Below are positions 12,201 through 30,278 of a stretch of 64,000 nt of DNA, one piece after another (within the stretch, counting starts at the first letter, position 1; every line of letters begins with the position of its first letter). The notes beneath the pieces were generated by a model that ran no database searches, was not told the DNA's origin, and saw nothing but the letters and a program-made list of their open reading frames with translations. The translations under genes and the position numbers were made by a program. Origin of the DNA: Lepisosteus oculatus (lineage: Eukaryota > Chordata > Actinopteri > Semionotiformes > Lepisosteidae); the NCBI RefSeq assembly GCF_040954835.1, contig NC_090706.1:40805148-40869147 (forward strand). Reading direction: 5' to 3'.

Positions 12201-15200
12201 ATATGAAAATCAGATAGATTGCATTTAAAGAAGGCTGGAAATATTTTATGTGCAATTTTGTTGGGAGCCTCTGAACAATTGTGTTTGGGGAGGAGCTGTT
12301 TATAGTCAGAATCCATTCTCTTAAAGGGACAGACTTCATACTAAGTAATTTGAAGGGACTGTGCTTGCCTATGGTTTTAAAGTCGTTGGATAAATCTAAT
12401 ACTGCATTTATGTATTCCATGCCGCAAACTGTCGTGAAATTCACATATAACCACTTCCTCCCCTCCACTGTACCATCATATAATGTTCTACAGTATATAG
12501 TATGTATGGTTAAAAGACCTAAGTAACCCACTCTTATATGATAAAGTACTAATGCATTGGTTGCAAGTTTAAATAACCATAGGGTAAAATAACTGACCAA
12601 CTAAAACAAACAACCATAATCACAAACGTATAGTTATTGGCAAAAATAAACAACGTGAATCCCTCCTATGTGTCCATTGGATACCTGCACTTTCTCTCTG
12701 CCCCACTGTAATCAAAACTGTACAGTCCACTCCAGCCTGTCACTCCCCACCCTGCTGGCACAGAACCTGGAGCTTTTGTTACGATACACAAACTCGAGAC
12801 CACATTGAGATGCGGGGTCTGGGCAGTGAGCACTTCTGCAGGGGGCAGGGAGAGACTTGTTCATTAGCTTGATTCATCTCACAGTCCTAGTCTGCTGTGC
12901 TCGGTTTCATCCCGATCTGTTTGTCTTACATACAAAACCCAGTCTGCCAGGCGGAAGTGCAAATAAGCGAATGTTAAATTCGCAGATGTCAAGACCCTAC
13001 TGTTCTTGTTACCTGCTGGCAGTTTCACAAACAGGTGAAGCATGTGGCCTGTAGGTCTGAAGTCGAAGGGGGCTTCCTGCAGATCTTCATTTGTTGATCT
13101 CTTTTGCTTTACCTCATAAGCCAGGGCAGTAAGGTGGATTGGATGCTTTTGCACTTGAGTTTGCAGCTTTTAAATCAACAGGAGGCTCCAGACGCAGCAG
13201 AGCACTTTTCTCACAAATACACTCACCTAGTGTACCCTAGCAACCGTGGTATGTGAACACAAAGGAAGTGGAGTTAGTGGAGCTGTGGAAGGAATGCTGA
13301 TGGAGAGCTGACACTCTGAGGGTGTCGGCCCCAGCAGGGCGTCCATCATTCTCACACTGCCGCGAATCGGGAGAAAAGATCTTGCATGTCCCTGACTTTA
13401 ATGGTGTTTGTAAATTGGCTTGTCAGGAAACGGCCGAGACTGGCCAAGAAAATTTATCAGCTCGATGAAGGCAAATTGATTTCTTTTTTTCCTGGAGAAG
13501 AATGACCTTCCCGATGGGTTGTGTTGAAAATATGTTGGTGTGGCACAGTGTGCCGTTTTTTCCTCTCCTGGTCCTGCAGTGTGCCCAGCCTCAGTGCTCA
13601 CCCACAGCTCCCACTGAGCAAATCTGAGGGGCATTTACAGTGCTGGAGCAGACAGCTTGTGAGTGATACATGACAGTGGCCGTGTGTTGTTTATATGTAA
13701 ATGAAATGTTACTACAGGACTTGTTGACTAGTGATTTGGACTGGATTCAGGAGTGTTTTCAAAGTGCTGTTTTTTTTTCCAAATGGCTGTTTTTTTTCTG
13801 AACTAAAGCGGGTTTGTTCATTTGCACAAATCACCTTTTCTCTTTTCTTTAAACTTTTCCCCGAACAGTTTTGTATATGAGGAGTTTTGTATTAGACAAG
13901 GTGTCTTAATAGCATTTAGAAATCCTCTGTGATATCCTTTGCCATATTTTGTTTAAAATGGTATCAAAAATGGGAGTGGTATTCATTGTCAATTTCAATT
14001 TGCCTTAGGTCTGTGCTAATTGGCAAATATATGCACAGCTTCACAGGTAAAGCCTTAATCTCCACACGCCTTGAGGCTGTTTCCTGGTGAGCAGTGTCTT
14101 TTCCAAGGTGGGATCAGATTTCCAAAGTGCCTGCTGACTCATGGTAAACTCATGTGCCTCAGCTTGTCTCTGAGGCAGTGCAAGCCAGTTACGGGGAGCT
14201 CTCCCGAGTCTGAGCGACTCCAGACGGGTGTTCAAATGAAAAAGGGGAAGGGTGCCCTTTGGTAATGTCGTGCTGTTGGTGAGAAAAAGGGTGCTGATGG
14301 GCCGGGGGGAGACAAGAGGGGCGCAGCGATGGAGAAATTCTTATTTCAGCCCATCAAGTCCCAGGTGCTTTGCTCTGCGGCTGAGCCTTTTCCTCCCCCT
14401 TCCTTTTTTAATTAGAGCACCTGAAGGCCTCTCTGGAGGAGTACATGGTGCGTTTGCCGAAGGTGAGAATCCTGCGGACGAAGAAGAGGGAGGGCCTGAT
14501 CCGGACGCGGCTCCTGGGAGCGACAGCGGCCAAAGGAGAGGTCATCACCTTCCTGGACTCGCACTGCGAGGCCAACGTGAACTGGCTGCCCCCTCTGCTC
14601 GGTCAGTGGAGCGCCCGCCCTGTGCTGAACACACACTGAACAGTGTTTTTATATCCCCCCTTGCCTGTCACCAGTTAGCGCCGAGGTCATGGTGAGACAC
14701 ACGGCGCATCTGTTCTTCTGCAGTTAGACATCAGACGCTTCCAACACGCAACGACGATGAGAGAGATCAGTCTGGATTATGACACGAGTAGGAGAGTAGT
14801 ACTGCGGTTAAGAAATAAAGTGATATACATACTCCAAAAGTAGTGGGAACGCAAGTTCAGAACTGTTGTTTTTGCTTCACAGTCATTCCATTTGTATTTG
14901 TGTCCGCTACAAACATGCAAGTGCACACCTTTCCCCTCTGTCACCGTGGTGACCGACTCCGCCTTTCCCCTCCCCTGCCACGGTGACCAACTCTGCTTTT
15001 CCCCTCAGTCACCGCGGTGACCGACTCCGCCTTTCCCTTCTGTCGCCGCAGTGACTGACTCCGCCTTTCCCCTCCATTGCCGTGGTGACCGACTCCGCCT
15101 TTCCCCTCCGTCGCCATCGTGTCTGACTCCGCCTTCCCCCTCTGTCGCCGCGGTGACCGACTCCGCCTTTCCCCTCCGCTGCCGCGGTGACCGACTGCAT

Positions 15201-24200: not shown

Positions 24201-27200
24201 TTTGTCTTGCCAGGTTCTCCAGCTGTGGAGCACGATTTGCCTGCTGGTGGAGTGATCTGTACAGTACAGTCGTGCACAGCCTGTGTTTAACTCTTCATGC
24301 GCTGATGTCACCAGGTGTGGATGTGTGGTGGCAGAATGGAAGACATACCATGCTCCAGAGTGGGACATATCTACAGGAAGTACGTTCCATACAAGGTGCC
24401 TGGTGGAGTCAGTCTGGCTAGGGTAAGTAAAATATTAATGCTGTTTGTCCCCATGGGCTTTTAACATGCATGGGAGTATTTCATGTTGAGTAAACCTGAC
24501 TGGCAGAATGAATGTTTTATTCCTCGATGTGAAAGTGATAATGTGCTATCCCATGAATCCTTCGGAAATCTGTTTCATGTCGGTACCTGTGCTGCAGTGC
24601 AGAGCTCCATGTCAAGAGCATGAAAATTAATGAATGAACGAGACGGATTTTAAGTAATTCTCAATTAATTCGCTACCATGCTCTCATTGGTCACCCTCAG
24701 ATCTCTGGTCTTAACCTGGTGTGATGTCACAAATAAGGACAGGAAATCTTAAGGAGATGAATAACCCTGTGTGGGGGGCCCTGTGTCGGACCCCTGTGTC
24801 GGGGGCCCTGTGTGGGGGGTCCTGTGTCGGACCCCTGTGCCGGGGGCCCTGTGTGGGGGGCCCTGTGTCGGGCCTCTGTGTTAGGCCCCTGTGTCGGCCC
24901 TGTGTTCAGCCCGAGATAGTGTCTGGTCTGAAGTGTGGGAGGCCCCTTGCCGAACCCCGTCCTGGTGACAACATCGCAGCGTGACACACATCGTTCCTTC
25001 ATTATCCAACAGGTTAGAACAGCAGAAGGGGGTTTGTCAAACACTCACAGCCTACACATCCAGGGACAGTGGAGCTCCACACGGCTCTGTCAGACAGACA
25101 CCCCTGCAGGAGGCAGGCAGACGGGGAGGGCCGGGTCAGGCAGGTCAATATCTGAATAATTCCCTGTGCTCACAGAGGCTTGGCAACTCCGAGGAAGTCT
25201 GTGTGTGTGAGGGTGTTTCCAGCGGCCTTTCCCCTGTGAACAACCAGTTACCAGGACAGATCAATATCTCCTCTGCCAGTAGCCTATCTGGGCTAAAACA
25301 TTCTCTGTGTACTTCTTTAGTCTGAGAAGGACAAATGGACATCTTGTTGCTTTCTTGTTAATCTAGCCAATACGCCAGACATGTCTGCTGGGCATTGAGA
25401 TTCAAGGCTGAAGAACATATTAACAAAGTTTGAAAAGGTTCATCTATGATTCTTCCTGTTTTTCCAACAAAGGTTTCTAGTTCTTGCATTCTTTGCAACT
25501 AGCAGTGTATTGATTTGGTCATTTGAAAGCTTACTGGATAAGTGACCTTGATGAGGAATTCGCAGTATTGATCCTAACATTAGGTCAAATCCTCACTCCA
25601 GCATAACCTGTATAAATTGGGCTTTCGATTCTTGCCTAGTAAAGTGAAATCTGAATGCATTGATTATCTTCATTACCTCATTACACAATGCCTTGAAGTG
25701 CTTTTTTTATATAGACTTGTTCATATTTGACTGAAGAGCAGACTAGAATATTTTAGTGGGTAAGTGCATTATTTTAAGAAATTAAGCCTCCAGAGCTGCC
25801 TGCCAAAAACTGACTGTATAGAATGCACCACATTTGAACAAATGTATCTCAAAATTGAATTTTAAGGTTTTTTGAAGAACATGCATCAGCCTTGCTACTG
25901 CATGCTTTTTGCTTTTTATTTTTTGTAAAAATTCCTAGTTTTACTTTATTCTGGAGCTGTGCAAGGTCAAGAGTTCTACAGTGAACAACAGAACTGTCCT
26001 TTTCTTATTTTGAATAAACTTTTAGGATTAACTCAGTGCTTCTCATGTGTATTCATTTTTGGCCACTGGCTTTTGGGATCATGAACATTTTTTTTAAGTG
26101 AGTGATCTCACCGGGCTGGACAGAAAGACTTAAAAACCAGCTCTCTTTCCATTGTGCTTATGTTTGCTTTTCTTCCAAGGCATAAAAAATGCATTTCATT
26201 GCCAAAATGTTTAGGCTGACACTCTGCTCAGGTGCCTTCACTGCAGAAAATAAATAATTCCTTGAGCGCTAACGGCCAGTGAATATCTGTTGCTGAAGCC
26301 CTGTTGTTAGATGTTAACTCTCTGGAATCCTTTGAGGAATGACTATGAGGCTTTAGGATCAGTATAAGGGGCGGAGTGGGCCCGTTTCTAACCGTCCTGT
26401 CTGTGAACGTGCTCTCCTGCAGAACCTGAAGCGAGTGGCGGAGGTGTGGATGGACGAGTACGCGGAGTACATCTACCAGCGCAGGCCTGAGTACAGGCAC
26501 CTCTCCGCTGGGGACATGACCGTCCAGAAGGAGCTGAGGAACAGCCTGAACTGTAAAAGCTTCAAGTGGTTCATGACTGATGTGGCCTGGGATCTGCCGA
26601 AACACTACCCCCCTGTGGAGCCACCGGCCGCCGCCTGGGGAGAGGTACAGTCCACACTGCGTCCACACTGTGTCATGATGGGAGAGGTACAGTCCACACT
26701 GCGTCCACACTGTGTTATGATGGGGGAGGTACAGTCCACACTGCGTCATGATGGGGGAGGTACAGTCCACACTGCGTCCACACTGTGTCATGATGGGGGA
26801 GGTACAGTCCACACTGCGTCCACACTGCGTCATGATGGGGGAGGTACAGTCCACACTGCGTCCACACTGTGTCATGATGGGGGAGGTACAGTCCACACTG
26901 CGTCCACACTGTGTCATGATGGGGGAGGTACAGTCCACACTGCGTCCACACTGTGTCATGATGGGGGAGGTACAGTCCACACTGTGTCCACACTGTGTCA
27001 TGATATATTTTTTAATAAAATAATGCTTTTGTTTTCTTTACTTTGAGTGAGTGCCTTGTGTACTGCGAATATGTTTAACTGGACAGTGCTGCAGTACGTA
27101 CAGTATGTACAGGGAGGAGTCCTGAGAAATGTGCGCAGAAATGTTTTCAGTGCACAGACCTGCCGTATGTTCACACACAGCCCCGTGACCCAGCTAGAGG

Positions 27201-30200
27201 TGGTTTTCTAAAAGGGGCACCGCCACCTTGGTCGAACATGTGGGCGTTAAACACTTTGGGGGTGCATCTTCAACAGCTCGCTTACAGTAACCAGGGCGGG
27301 GCGCAGTTTGGGGTTCCCTTCCCTGAGTGTCTGTGTGTGTCTGTTCCAGCTGCGGAACGTGGGCAGCGGCTTGTGTGCAGAGAGCAAGCACAGCGCCTCT
27401 GGCTCCCCCATCAGGCTGGAGGTCTGCGCGGCGGGCCGAGGGGAGACGGGCTGGAGTCACGGCCAGGTGAGTGGCACAGGCCTGGCCTCTGGAGGCCCTG
27501 GCGTCTTGATTCTATCATAGAATAATAACAATAATGATATCTTAACACTAGTACAGTGCTTTTCTGGACACTCCACTCAAAGCGCTTTACAGGTCATGGG
27601 GATCCCCTCCACCAGCACCAGTGTGCAGCCCCACCTGGATGATGTGCCAGTCCGCTCCCCACACACCAGCTCTCAGTGGGGAGGAGAGCAGAGTGATGGA
27701 GCCGGTTCAGAGAGGGGGATTATTAGGAGGCCATGATGGGTAAAGACCAGGGGGAAATTTGGCCAGGACACCAGGGTTACACCCTTGGACCATAGAGAGT
27801 CACCTTTACCCTTTGGGCAAAGTGCATTTCCATGTCGTTTCCATATGTGACACTTGAAGTCCACTGGGTTGATTTTCACAGCGTTGAAGATTTTGAATGT
27901 TTGTATCAAATTCTCTTTCTATCTGCTCCTTAAGCCTGTCCATGGCAGCTGTTAAGACCCAAAATGCATCTGTTTGCTCTTCTCTGGACTGATTCCAGAG
28001 CAGCAGTATGGTCATTTCGTTATTACTGACCTGAACATTCTGATCAGAAAGCACTCCCAAAATGTGACATTTGTCAAAATGAGGTAGACCACATTCCTGT
28101 TGGGTTAAACTCAAACACATACCCTCAGACTGAGCCAGGACTGCTACATCTGACCATCTTGACTTATGCCAAGTGTAAGGACAAAAAAAAGAGAATATGA
28201 TGTATGAAAAACCTTTGAATGTTTGTTGGCGTAAACTTTGCCATGCTGAATTTGTGCAATAAATTTGAACTACATTTTGTTTTCCTTGTTCAGTTGCTAT
28301 GCATTTGAATTGCTTAATCTGTTTTCTGTATTTTTCTTGCAACTGTGATAGCAATCTTTTTTCTAAATATGTTTTTGGAAACTTTGCTTTGCTTTTACAG
28401 TCGTCTGAGACTGCAGGAGACCTTTGGAAAGGGCGTGATCATGAACTGGGGTTTAGAAGCAATTTCGCCAAATCATGTCAGTTTTTAATGACAGTGACAG
28501 AAAGCAATTTAAGCACACTGGAGCACATCAGAGAGAGTTTGTATTTAACATTAAAAAAAGTAAAAAAACATCACCCTGGATTTTGAAGCTGTGACACTTC
28601 GGTTAATGGAAGAATGTTACCAATTAATCTTGTGCCTGACAGGCAAAATAGGCAAATTAAAAAAATGGAAGAAGCTCATTGCAGCACTGAGAACAGACCT
28701 GAATACATGAACAAAGCTGTCAAAAGATTAAATTGGAGGCTGCTACTGCTGCCATATAAACCTGCTACTGTAATAACTGCAAACAGGTTTGCAAAACAGC
28801 AAAACAAACTCAGCTCTTAAAACCCCCAGGATTCTCCTCTGGGAGTGCGCTCCCCTCCTGTGTCACTCTCTTCTGGCAGTGCACCCAATACCTGTGTCAC
28901 TCTCCTATCGGAGTGCACACTCCTGTGTCACTCTCCTCTGGGAGTGCGCCCCCCTCCTGTGTCACTCTCCTCTGGGGGTGCACCCTCCTCCTGTGTCACT
29001 CTCCTCTGGGAGTGCGCGCTCCTGTGTCACTCTGCTCTGGGAGTGTGCACTCCTGCGTCAGCCCCAGCTCTCAGGAAGGGGAAGGCAGGGTGCAGAGCCC
29101 TGCTGCTGGAGCTGGGTGATAACGGGTTGAAACTCCTGTTTGACTTGCAGGTCTTCACGTTCGGCTGGAGGGAAGACATCCGCGTGGGCGATCCCCTGCA
29201 CACGAAGAAGGTGTGTTTTGATGCTATTTCACACAACAGCCCTGTCACGTTATACGACTGCCATGGCATGAAAGGGAATCAGCTATGGAGATACAGAAAG
29301 GTAAGAACAGCCTGTAATCTTGATCATTTTACACCTTAGATACAAAAAGGCTGAACTGCTGTACATCTGTGCTGCTCTTTTATTTTTCTTTTTTTTCAGT
29401 GGGAGCTGTATGAAGTAATTATCTGATTACTGGGCAGGAATTCCCTGGAAGGGGTTTGATAGACTGACTTGAATCATGAAAGCTGATTCCAGAGTCTGTA
29501 TTGATTAGTTATTAGTCTTCAGTGCTTCGCCTGAATCTGGAAGGAAAAAAAAATCTTACTTTCCTCTAGATTTTAGTTATTGTTGCAATATTGGTTTTAA
29601 TTAAAATCATTTTGACTTGGATAATGAATTTCAATTGCCCGGCATCTAGTGTACAAGGGTAATTGAATAGACCCTGTTTGCCTCAGTCTTTTTTTCACTG
29701 CTACTAGTAAACTGGATCAGAATAATTATTTCATCTAGCTCAAGTATAAAATATCAATTTGACTCTTTGCCATGAAGTAAAAGATTTCACTGACAGACCA
29801 TCACTCTCGTGTTTCCTCGGCCTAAGGCATGTTGACACTTTCTTCTTCAGTAATCACCCGGGTGAAGTATTCATTTAAGGTTTTAATTTAACTTATCAAA
29901 ACCATAGTCCCTCATGATATTGTCTGTCGGATGTCTCTCAGATAAATCTAAAGGGGTCCCTAAATTTCCCCCTGCGGTGCTCTGACTCGTTTGCTCTGCC
30001 TGGTCTGCCTCCGGTGCAGCGAGTGACGCCCTGGCTTCTCTCACGGAGTGACTGAACTACCAAACGGGCAGGATGGGGCAGATGGTCTGTGACAAAATAC
30101 CTGTTGTCTCTTTCTTCAGGACAAAAGTATCTACCACCCCATCAGTAACAGCTGCGTGGACGCCAGCCCAGCAGAGAAAAAGGTCTTCATGAACAGCTGT

Positions 30201-30278
30201 GACTCCTCCAAAACACAGCAGTGGGTGTTTGAGAAAACAAACTCCACCGTCTTGGAACTGTTCAACAGAAACAACTGA
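129..30278 (+). CDS. GALNT10: Polypeptide N-acetylgalactosaminyltransferase 10 (partial; nine 3' coding exons)
   Basis: Spliced CDS: 129-295, 14416-14601, 17405-17588, 20219-20336, 24315-24422, 26423-26644, 27350-27466, 29151-29300, 30120-30278. All junctions are GT-AG and the frame is continuous for 469 residues to TGA at 30276. The product aligns closely, from memory, with residues about 135-603 of human GALNT10. The enzyme starts mucin-type O-glycosylation in the Golgi by transferring GalNAc from UDP-GalNAc to Ser/Thr, preferring pre-glycosylated peptides. Visible landmarks (fragment numbering): GT27 N-terminal catalytic half with [16 protein letters not shown] at 15-30, the metal-binding DSH at 103-105, the Gal/GalNAc-T segment [18 protein letters not shown] near 185-202, [11 protein letters not shown] at 208-218, and a ricin-type lectin domain over about 329-469 with QLW and QQW. 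The signal-anchor and stem exons lie upstream of the window. GALNT7 is the nearest alternative, but the sequence and the SAP30L/HAND1 neighbours favour GALNT10. Confidence 0.95.
1160..1235 (-). repeat. Fragment of an ancient dispersed repeat
   Basis: On the minus strand the segment reads like the common fish repeat containing ctgtgggaggaaaccagag followed by cacccagaggaaaccc. The family appears to be the same as that at 19860-20010 and 62080-62326. It is heavily diverged and the exact family name is not assigned. Confidence 0.5.
2447..2786 (+). repeat. Degenerate tandem repeat, unit about 45-55 bp
   Basis: About seven diverged units contain gtccagtcctggtcctggag followed by gtcagtgtgtctgcagcag. 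One unit, at about 2539-2566, is inverted (ctgaccctccaggaccagga). The unit resembles a single copy at 35279-35345, so it probably arose by amplification of part of a dispersed element. Confidence 0.7.
4885..4940 (+). repeat. tRNA-like SINE head fragment (degenerate)
   Basis: The segment ggtggtgtagtggt fits a Pol III A box, and about 30 bases later gggtcgaggc resembles a decayed B box. No cloverleaf or intact tRNA is visible. This is most likely the 5' end of an old tRNA-derived SINE. Confidence 0.3.
9140..9215 (+). repeat. Short dispersed-repeat remnant
   Basis: The sequence atggataggcgtcctgtcct followed by aggtataaaataaatggat resembles the tail of a common fish repeat that usually ends in a run like tggataagcggttaagaaaatgaatgg. 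It is short and diverged, so the assignment is tentative. Confidence 0.3.
10863..11008 (+). repeat. LINE remnant, C-terminal end of reverse-transcriptase ORF (CR1-like)
   Basis: One frame reads [18 protein letters not shown] and continues [16 protein letters not shown]. This resembles the C-terminal tail of CR1-clade LINE polymerases (consensus like LFSLEKRRLRGDLI..FK). No further LINE sequence is evident, so it is a short dead fragment. Related fragments lie in antisense at 27870-27915, 37617-37830 and 41855-41915. Confidence 0.6.
11195..11400. repeat. Dispersed-repeat fragment (family not assigned)
   Basis: An A-rich segment includes tttattgaacagggacagag, then an ACA-rich run (acaagacacagacacaacat). 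This pattern of a T-run followed by attgaacagggacag is typical of dispersed fish repeats. The boundaries are approximate. Confidence 0.35.
14416..14601 (+). CDS. GALNT10: GALNT10 coding exon B
   Basis: The acceptor cttttttaattag ends at 14415 and the donor gtcagt starts at 14602. The exon encodes (E)[19 protein letters not shown] through [10 protein letters not shown]. It contains [12 protein letters not shown] and the DSH metal-binding triad at fragment residues 103-105, needed for Mn2+ and UDP-GalNAc binding in this family. Both ends are phase 1. Confidence 0.95.
14929..15197 (+). repeat. Minisatellite, unit about 34 bp
   Basis: About eight imperfect units follow the pattern gtgaccgactccgcctttcc then cctccgtcgccgcg. 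Units start near 14952, 14986, 15020, 15055, 15089, 15124, 15157 and 15191. The array is GC-rich, with several CpGs per unit, and lies about 330 bp after exon B. Long open frames on the minus strand here are artefacts of the repeat. Confidence 0.85.
16826..16880 (+). repeat. tRNA-derived SINE fragment (degenerate)
   Basis: The sequence gcggtgtggaggagtgactg is followed by gaacgttgtgggttcgagtc. The last part is a good B-box match (ggttcgagtc), in the arrangement common in fish SINE heads. The body is not recognisable. Confidence 0.4.
17405..17588 (+). CDS. GALNT10: GALNT10 coding exon C
   Basis: The acceptor ggttccag ends at 17404 and the donor gtgagt starts at 17589. It encodes (D)[20 protein letters not shown] through RADPSEPF(E), including the [14 protein letters not shown] segment. 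The sequence is nearly identical to human GALNT10. It ends after two bases of a Glu codon. Confidence 0.95.
18092..18289 (+). repeat. Minisatellite, 19-bp unit
   Basis: About ten and a half copies of gagcgtgtcacattgtcca lie in tandem. Variant units read gagcctgtc (two copies) and the shortened gagcgtggcaccgtcca form (two copies). The units are nearly identical, so the array is young. It sits about 500 bp downstream of exon C. Confidence 0.92.
18925..19240 (-). repeat. Dispersed repeat, AT-rich
   Basis: The segment gtttattaatcccatgaggg followed by aaactcaactgctacagcag resembles a very common fish interspersed repeat (tttattgatcccagggggaaattc type). An A-rich stretch with aca repeats follows. 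The minus orientation is inferred from the terminal tttatt. Family and exact ends were not determined. Confidence 0.5.
19640..20010 (+). repeat. Composite of two repeat remnants
   Basis: At 19662-19720, tttatatagcagctttcata resembles a LINE 3' tail. At 19860-20010, gccagggcagggtacatccc, then ggacaggacacaagtccatc and acagggcagacacacag, matches the middle of the dispersed family also seen at 62080-62326. Both are diverged. Confidence 0.5.
20219..20336 (+). CDS. GALNT10: GALNT10 coding exon D (Gal/GalNAc-T motif)
   Basis: The acceptor gtgtctcctag ends at 20218 and the donor gtagga starts at 20337. It encodes (E)[21 protein letters not shown], then [18 protein letters not shown]. This is the Gal/GalNAc-T motif of the C-terminal catalytic half, which helps bind UDP-GalNAc. 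Conservation with human is almost complete. Confidence 0.96.
20337..24314 (+). other. GALNT10: GALNT10 intron (4.0 kb)
   Basis: Donor gtagga, acceptor gatgtcaccag. The sequence is mostly unique-looking and AT-rich. I see no exon, RNA gene or clear repeat beyond short microsatellite-like runs (aca-rich at about 20525-20570). Confidence 0.8.
24315..24422 (+). CDS. GALNT10: GALNT10 coding exon E
   Basis: The acceptor ccag ends at 24314 and the donor gtaagt starts at 24423. Its 36 codons encode [20 protein letters not shown], then [16 protein letters not shown]. The exon carries the WMCGG and CSRVGH elements typical of all GalNAc-transferases. Both ends are phase 0. Confidence 0.96.
24423..26422 (+). 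other. GALNT10: GALNT10 intron (2.0 kb)
   Basis: Donor gtaagt, acceptor gctctcctgcag. It includes the GC-rich repeated block at 24769-24912. The remainder is unique-looking sequence. Confidence 0.85.
24769..24912 (+). repeat. GC-rich degenerate short tandem repeats
   Basis: Units like ccctgtgtcggacccctgtg and gggggccctgtgtggggg repeat with 13-27 bp periodicity. G-runs of four to six bases recur on the plus strand, so G-quadruplex formation is possible. The block lies about 350 bp after exon E. Confidence 0.8.
26423..26644 (+). CDS. GALNT10: GALNT10 coding exon F (end of catalytic domain)
   Basis: The acceptor tcctgcag ends at 26422. The 74 codons encode [20 protein letters not shown] through [12 protein letters not shown], the end of the catalytic domain and the linker to the lectin domain. 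The donor gtacag at 26645 is chosen because the next exon continues LRNVGSGLC, matching human IRNVGTGLC. This donor is the first of nine tandem copies in the minisatellite that starts here. Confidence 0.93.
26637..27006 (+). repeat. Minisatellite overlapping the exon F splice donor, 42-bp unit
   Basis: The motif gaggtacag occurs at 26642, 26684, 26726, 26757, 26799, 26841, 26883, 26925 and 26967. Spacing is 42 bp, except one 31-bp unit at 26726-26756. The first copy is the authentic exon F donor, and the unit includes the last several exon bases (gggagag). The array is open in forward and reverse frames, so long ORFs here are repeat artefacts unless the intron is retained. Confidence 0.95.
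26645..27349 (+). other. GALNT10: GALNT10 intron (705 bp)
   Basis: Donor gtacag, acceptor ctgttccag. More than half of the intron is the 42-bp minisatellite. A canonical AATAAA lies at 27014-27019, directly after the array. Confidence 0.88.
27014..27019 (+). terminator. Candidate intronic poly(A) signal
   Basis: AATAAA is followed by a T-rich stretch (gcttttgttttctttacttt). It lies inside the intron that separates the catalytic exons from the lectin exons of GALNT10. Use of this site is an inference; the hexamer alone occurs often by chance. Confidence 0.25.
27350..27466 (+). CDS. GALNT10: GALNT10 coding exon G (lectin domain start)
   Basis: The acceptor ctgttccag ends at 27349 and the donor gtgagt starts at 27467. 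Its 39 codons encode [20 protein letters not shown], then [19 protein letters not shown]. It begins the ricin-type beta-trefoil lectin domain that binds GalNAc-bearing glycopeptides. It is less conserved than the catalytic exons, as expected. Confidence 0.93.
27515..27800 (-). repeat. Dispersed repeat with AAT-type tail, antisense copy
   Basis: On the minus strand the element ends in aaagcgctttgagtggagtg, tccagaaaagcactgt and an ATT-rich tail. The same family lies in plus orientation at about 60785-61020, and truncated at 48865-48967. The element looks like a retroposon with a microsatellite tail. Shared internal sequence includes ccactgagagctggtgtgtg. Confidence 0.75.
27870..27915 (-). repeat. 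LINE remnant (CR1-like C-terminus)
   Basis: The minus strand reads [20 protein letters not shown], similar to the [10 protein letters not shown]-type tail of CR1-like LINE polymerases. It is a short, diverged fragment and the upstream LINE frame is lost. Confidence 0.5.
28843..29056 (+). repeat. Minisatellite, unit about 30-35 bp
   Basis: About seven imperfect units repeat the pattern cctgtgtcactctcctctgg then gagtgcgc. The array ends about 95 bp upstream of exon H, so it adjoins the likely branch-point region. The units are pyrimidine-rich. Confidence 0.88.
29151..29300 (+). CDS. GALNT10: GALNT10 coding exon H (lectin domain)
   Basis: The acceptor gacttgcag ends at 29150 and the donor gtaaga starts at 29301. 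It encodes [20 protein letters not shown], then [20 protein letters not shown] and [10 protein letters not shown]. The CFDA, YDCH and QLW elements belong to the middle repeat of the ricin-type lectin fold. Confidence 0.96.
29301..30119 (+). other. GALNT10: GALNT10 intron (819 bp)
   Basis: Donor gtaaga, acceptor tctttcttcag. The sequence looks unique and AT-rich, with no repeat or further exon seen. Confidence 0.85.
30120..30278 (+). CDS. GALNT10: GALNT10 terminal coding exon
   Basis: The acceptor tttcttcag ends at 30119. It encodes [20 protein letters not shown] through [13 protein letters not shown], with stop TGA at 30276-30278. It includes the last lectin repeat with QQW. The C-terminus is one Asn longer than the human form as I recall it. 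Confidence 0.95.
   Translation, partial: DKSIYHPISNSCVDASPAEKKVFMNSCDSSKTQQWVFEKTNSTVLELFNRNN

Follow-up and report, generated by a model that had tools for sequence, protein, structure and literature searches.

The GALNT10 exons and a minisatellite at a splice donor

The analysed window is a stretch of 64,000 bases (C11:40805148-40869147 of a 1.2-Gb assembly, with the contig end about 1.4 Mb away), in which GALNT10 exons follow each other in order along the forward strand, from before position 295 up to 30278. Human GALNT10 (PDB 2d7i) was the top match for each exon query, with the exons spanning the catalytic as well as the lectin parts, congruent with an assignment to this gene. On the basis of the gene, the source is a vertebrate, probably a ray-finned fish. 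Translated, 26411-26650 aligns with residues 352-431 of the 2d7i chain and 27347-27469 with residues 429-469, the two alignments joining at W-G-E/L-R-N-V (the slash denotes the exon boundary throughout). The first of these exons, E-f (26423-26644, 222 nt), holds the end of the catalytic domain and terminates in GAG, as delineated from the 2d7i alignment, the donor position and a paralogue comparison. The second, E-g (27350-27466, from the 2d7i alignment), opens the lectin part with LRNVGSGLC and is preceded by a good, normal acceptor at 27349. Two further exons were computed on the same strand, E-h at 29151-29300 and the last coding exon through the stop codon at 30120-30278. The initial annotation located the site between the catalytic and lectin parts, and the 2d7i alignment agrees, with the domain boundary itself being one that we take to lie at the E-f/E-g junction. 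Within the assembly, the most similar paralogous exon (L002, 79% identical) ends where E-f does, with GAG/gtaagc, and adjoins a further copy at 51%; we presume that L002 is probably GALNTL6 and that its neighbour is GALNT7-like.

Spanning the end of E-f and the start of the following intron is a forward-strand minisatellite of nine copies (26636-27004, 369 bp), for which Tandem Repeats Finder reports a period of 42, 9.0 copies, 91% matches and a score of 624, a tandem repetition far beyond chance. The unit measures 42 bp, except for one copy of 31 bp, and the first copy starts within the last 9 bases of E-f. The unit thereby holds the authentic exon/intron boundary, as concluded from the repeat call together with the 2d7i alignment and the exon end of the paralogue. 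All nine copies read GAG/GTACAGTCCACACTG, with the identical donor 9-mer GAG/GTACAG, so the downstream copies retain an intact donor, and the gt dinucleotides lie at 26645, 26687, 26729, 26760, 26802, 26844, 26886, 26928 and 26970, with successive spacings of 42, 42, 31, 42, 42, 42, 42 and 42. The anatomy of the GALNT10 array, namely a repeated boundary with an equivalent donor in each of nine copies, is real and exactly as first described.

The copies vary at 5 of the 42 columns, in addition to a single 11-bp deletion in copy 3. An assembly error is a very improbable source of the array or of its number of copies: copies 4, 6, 7 and 8 are identical, and reads could thus be mis-stacked, but copies 1, 2, 3, 5 and 9 each bear their own marks, one of them the clean 11-bp deletion, and the array occupies just 369 bp inside a 42.3-Mb contig. 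The whole array matches once in the assembly, in a search that omits very common words.

Origin of the array and the role of chance

Sequence comparison indicates that the exon gave rise to the repeat unit and not the reverse, since the exon-side bases of the unit correspond to the codons for the conserved W-G-E, which the exon shares with the paralogous exon L002. At position -4, copy 2 keeps the exon-like A and copies 3-9 have G, a pattern that fits growth of the array away from the exon. A short tandem duplication may have taken the last 8-9 bases of the GALNT10 exon together with about 33 intron bases, and subsequent amplification to nine copies would have generated an intron with nine equal, weak 5' splice sites. 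The 11-bp sub-repeat deletion in copy 3 would then have set the limit to the number of in-frame donors.

Selection on the donor was considered and is unsupported: none of the 5 variable columns falls in the 9 donor columns of the 42-column unit, and such invariance across the copies is expected by chance (P about 0.28). Chance may also account for the position of the repeat. With a filter of period 10-120 and at least 2.8 copies, the window holds 7 arrays over 1615 of its 64,000 bases, and random placement would put 0.4 of its 16 splice junctions inside arrays (16 x 1615/64000, calculated by hand). That one of the 7 covers an exon boundary has about one chance in three and is not very improbable, and a donor inside an array is automatically repeated with it, thus requiring no special cause. 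The array is probably tolerated rather than selected.

For comparison, under the same filter 20 hand-picked 10-kb samples contain 5 arrays over 317 of 200,000 bases, placing the minisatellite density of the window at about 16 times that of the sampled stretches. Another array in the window, a 34-bp minisatellite of about 6.5 copies (28833-29060, TCTCCTCTGGGAGTGC...), ends some 90 bases before the E-h acceptor (29151); its units are pyrimidine-rich with AGs and could supply alternative acceptors.

The nine donors, their products and the choice between them

Joined to the E-g acceptor exon at 27350, donors 1-3 maintain the normal frame without a stop. Donor 1 (26645-26650), the authentic boundary according to the 2d7i alignment and the donor scan, adds nothing, while donor 2 (26687-26692, +42 nt) and donor 3 (26729-26734, +84 nt, opening the 31-bp copy) add 14 and 28 residues, respectively. 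The remaining six shift the frame, with additions of 115-325 nt that are each 1 mod 3: donor 4 (26760-26765, +115 nt), donor 5 (26802-26807, +157 nt), donor 6 (26844-26849, +199 nt), donor 7 (26886-26891, +241 nt), donor 8 (26928-26933, +283 nt) and donor 9 (26970-26975, +325 nt), the last copy. Both in-frame insertions and the frame shift of donors 4-9 through the 31-bp unit had been proposed initially, and both are borne out by the joined sequences. Unspliced read-through from E-f, across the array and into the following intron, meets its first in-frame stop at 27044-27046 on the same strand.

In the products of donors 4-9, translation would end 79 nt upstream of the final exon junction. The usual limit for nonsense-mediated decay is 50-55 nt before that junction, and with a stop at this distance the mRNA from these donors is predicted to be degraded. 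If donors 4-9 took a large share of the transcripts, little GALNT10 mRNA would result and the array would lower or tune expression through decay. This is congruent with six of the nine donors shifting the frame, and with the reported preference for the proximal donor when both of two sites are occupied by U1. We nevertheless regard it as unlikely, since the other open coding exons look normal, which is ill-suited to a gene strongly damaged in the long term.

Donor scoring, proposed in the initial annotation, was performed with a rough matrix of approximate donor frequencies and with U1 pairing, indicating that the array donors are weak and of equal strength across the nine. By this rough matrix the array donor scores 0.07; the window contains 8 GALNT10 donors, and this is the lowest value among them (the others range from 0.81 to 8.07). 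Of the 3993 GTs scored in the window, 8.6% reach at least this value. Its U1 pairing energy of -6.9 is the third weakest of the 8, after E-b (-6.3) and E-c (-6.8). Apart from the array donor, two GALNT10 donors are also weak, at 14602 and 17589, with TCG/GTCAGT (C at +3) and TGA/GTGAGT. Among the 81 GTs examined at 26560-27349, four outside the array, at 27047, 27200, 27240 and 27103, obtain slightly higher scores than its donors. Moreover, the donor 9-mers are predicted to be mostly base-paired, with a chance of being unpaired of 0.004-0.047 in a 120-nt window and 0.0007-0.07 in a 200-nt window. The 120-nt window leaves donors 1 and 2 least paired (0.043 and 0.047); at 200 nt donor 2 alone stands out (0.07), with donor 1 falling to 0.006.

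Our best explanation, which we hold with about even confidence, is that amplification of the boundary provided nine equal, weak donors of which donor 1 is the main one, donors 2 and 3 leak, and donors 4-9 feed decay. Donor 1, as the sole donor preceded by real coding exon, would give most of the mRNA. Leakage through donors 2 and 3 would keep the frame and lengthen the linker between the catalytic and lectin parts by 14 or 28 residues, and the frameshifted mRNA from donors 4-9 would be removed by nonsense-mediated decay. Alternative donor use in the array is plausible, supported by the close parallel of human IFI6, where downstream repeat units have been reported as used donors. Against a leaky set of donors speak the poor scores of all nine, their predicted pairing and the four slightly higher-scoring intronic GTs. 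In vitro, duplicated donors at high SRSF1 or U1 reportedly favour the intron-proximal site, and this also counts against our explanation, as such a preference would select donor 9, which is out of frame.

A rival that we consider somewhat less probable is that the array is inert in splicing, with donor 1 alone being used through exon definition and coding-exon enhancers and copies 2-9 representing an ordinary intronic minisatellite. Only copy 1 follows a coding exon of 222 nt, which donors 2-9 would lengthen to 264-547 nt; minisatellites are frequent in the window and display no sign of function; and the invariance of the donor is, as described above, expected by chance. On the other hand, nine identical 9-mers leave no difference in strength to separate the donors, and downstream units are reported to be usable in human IFI6.

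Splicing between copies would run from the GT of one to the AG of a second, in the manner proposed for introns that arise when AGGT segments are duplicated in tandem. It would draw on the AG/GT present in the unit, and PMC4974935 offers a model and multi-copy cases. We rejected it as exceedingly improbable, since the copies contain no usable acceptor with a pyrimidine tract before the AG: by eye, each AG is preceded by the G-rich CATGATGGGGGAG, and the acceptor at 27349 is a good one.

The array may act as a length-set switch of the reading frame. The units before the 31-bp copy would fix the number of in-frame donors, and gain or loss of units in the population would alter the length of the GALNT10 linker and the share of mRNA directed to decay. 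We give this proposal little credence. Nine identical and evenly spaced donors with one shared acceptor would allow the spliceosome's choice by position alone to be tested cleanly, because sequence strength cannot differ among them. If donors 2 and 3 are used, a fast-changing repeat would be lengthening a glycosyltransferase linker; if they are not, the array shows the degree to which exon context overrides sequence.

Similar arrays in the genome and known parallels

The assembly was also searched for three AGGTRAGT motifs spaced 12-42, with the motif read backwards as a control. Matches numbered 884+1131 for the donor motif vs 319+122 for the reversed motif in the 1.2-Gb assembly. A genome-wide excess of donor-bearing arrays was however rejected, as counting by array over one shared 234.0-Mb span (C1 to early C4, among the matches listed) gives 6 clusters for the donor motif vs 9 for the reversed one, the excess reflecting a few long arrays. 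The upstream ends of 8 listed clusters were inspected, including one (L044) in which the array fills its piece and starts beyond it. Among the other 7 listed clusters, L040 (C3:10929100-10930300) is the only one whose open frame ends in a unit-like donor (18 of 25 bases). The frame terminates in ...DRTGMIYR with the donor ACAG/GTGAGG, and a CAG/GTGAGT array follows within tens of bases; the open reading frame has no Pfam or PDB match. From its sequence, L040 is a possible second exon-seeded donor array, with the exon being putative. Another cluster, L043, has open frames too, in GC-rich and simple-repetitive sequence. Separately, C4:2399552-2404340 harbours tandem repeats that extend over at least 4.8 kb, with the consensus donor CAG/GTGAGT about every 38 bp.

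In the open-licence literature searched we found no earlier report of the GALNT10 donor array. The human genes IFI6 and CBS nonetheless already provide examples of minisatellites spanning a donor, and GALNT10 shares the anatomy of both. The IFI6 (6-16, G1P3) minisatellite, with a unit of about 12 bp, was reportedly described by Turri, Cuin and Porter in 1995. As in GALNT10, repeat units downstream of the boundary carry donors, and PMC4526556, citing Turri 1995, describes two of them as being used, giving three mRNAs. The GALNT10 unit differs in its length of 42 bp and in that six of the nine donors are out of frame; moreover, downstream use is reported for IFI6, whereas GALNT10 is known from sequence alone.

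The human CBS VNTR of 31 bp is designated c.1444_1467+7(16_21), with 16-21 copies in people according to PMC2630376. Each copy carries the boundary, as in GALNT10, the unit by its name comprising the final 24 bases of the exon and the intron up to position +7. The CBS copies are more numerous and shorter and belong to another gene, with population variation documented there, whereas the GALNT10 array is seen in one assembly.

Two further systems are related less directly. Intron gain by tandem duplication of AGGT segments, described for ATP2A1 and fission yeast genes in PMC4974935, resembles the GALNT10 array in that the duplicated segment holds AG/GT; in GALNT10, however, an existing boundary is amplified and no new intron is indicated. 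Likewise, variable internal tandem repeats in human segmental duplicates have minisatellite units, near 30 bp, that lie at exon-intron boundaries and alter intron structure, according to PMC2812944. The location at the boundary is shared with GALNT10, and the difference lies in the novel introns that distinguish the paralogues there.
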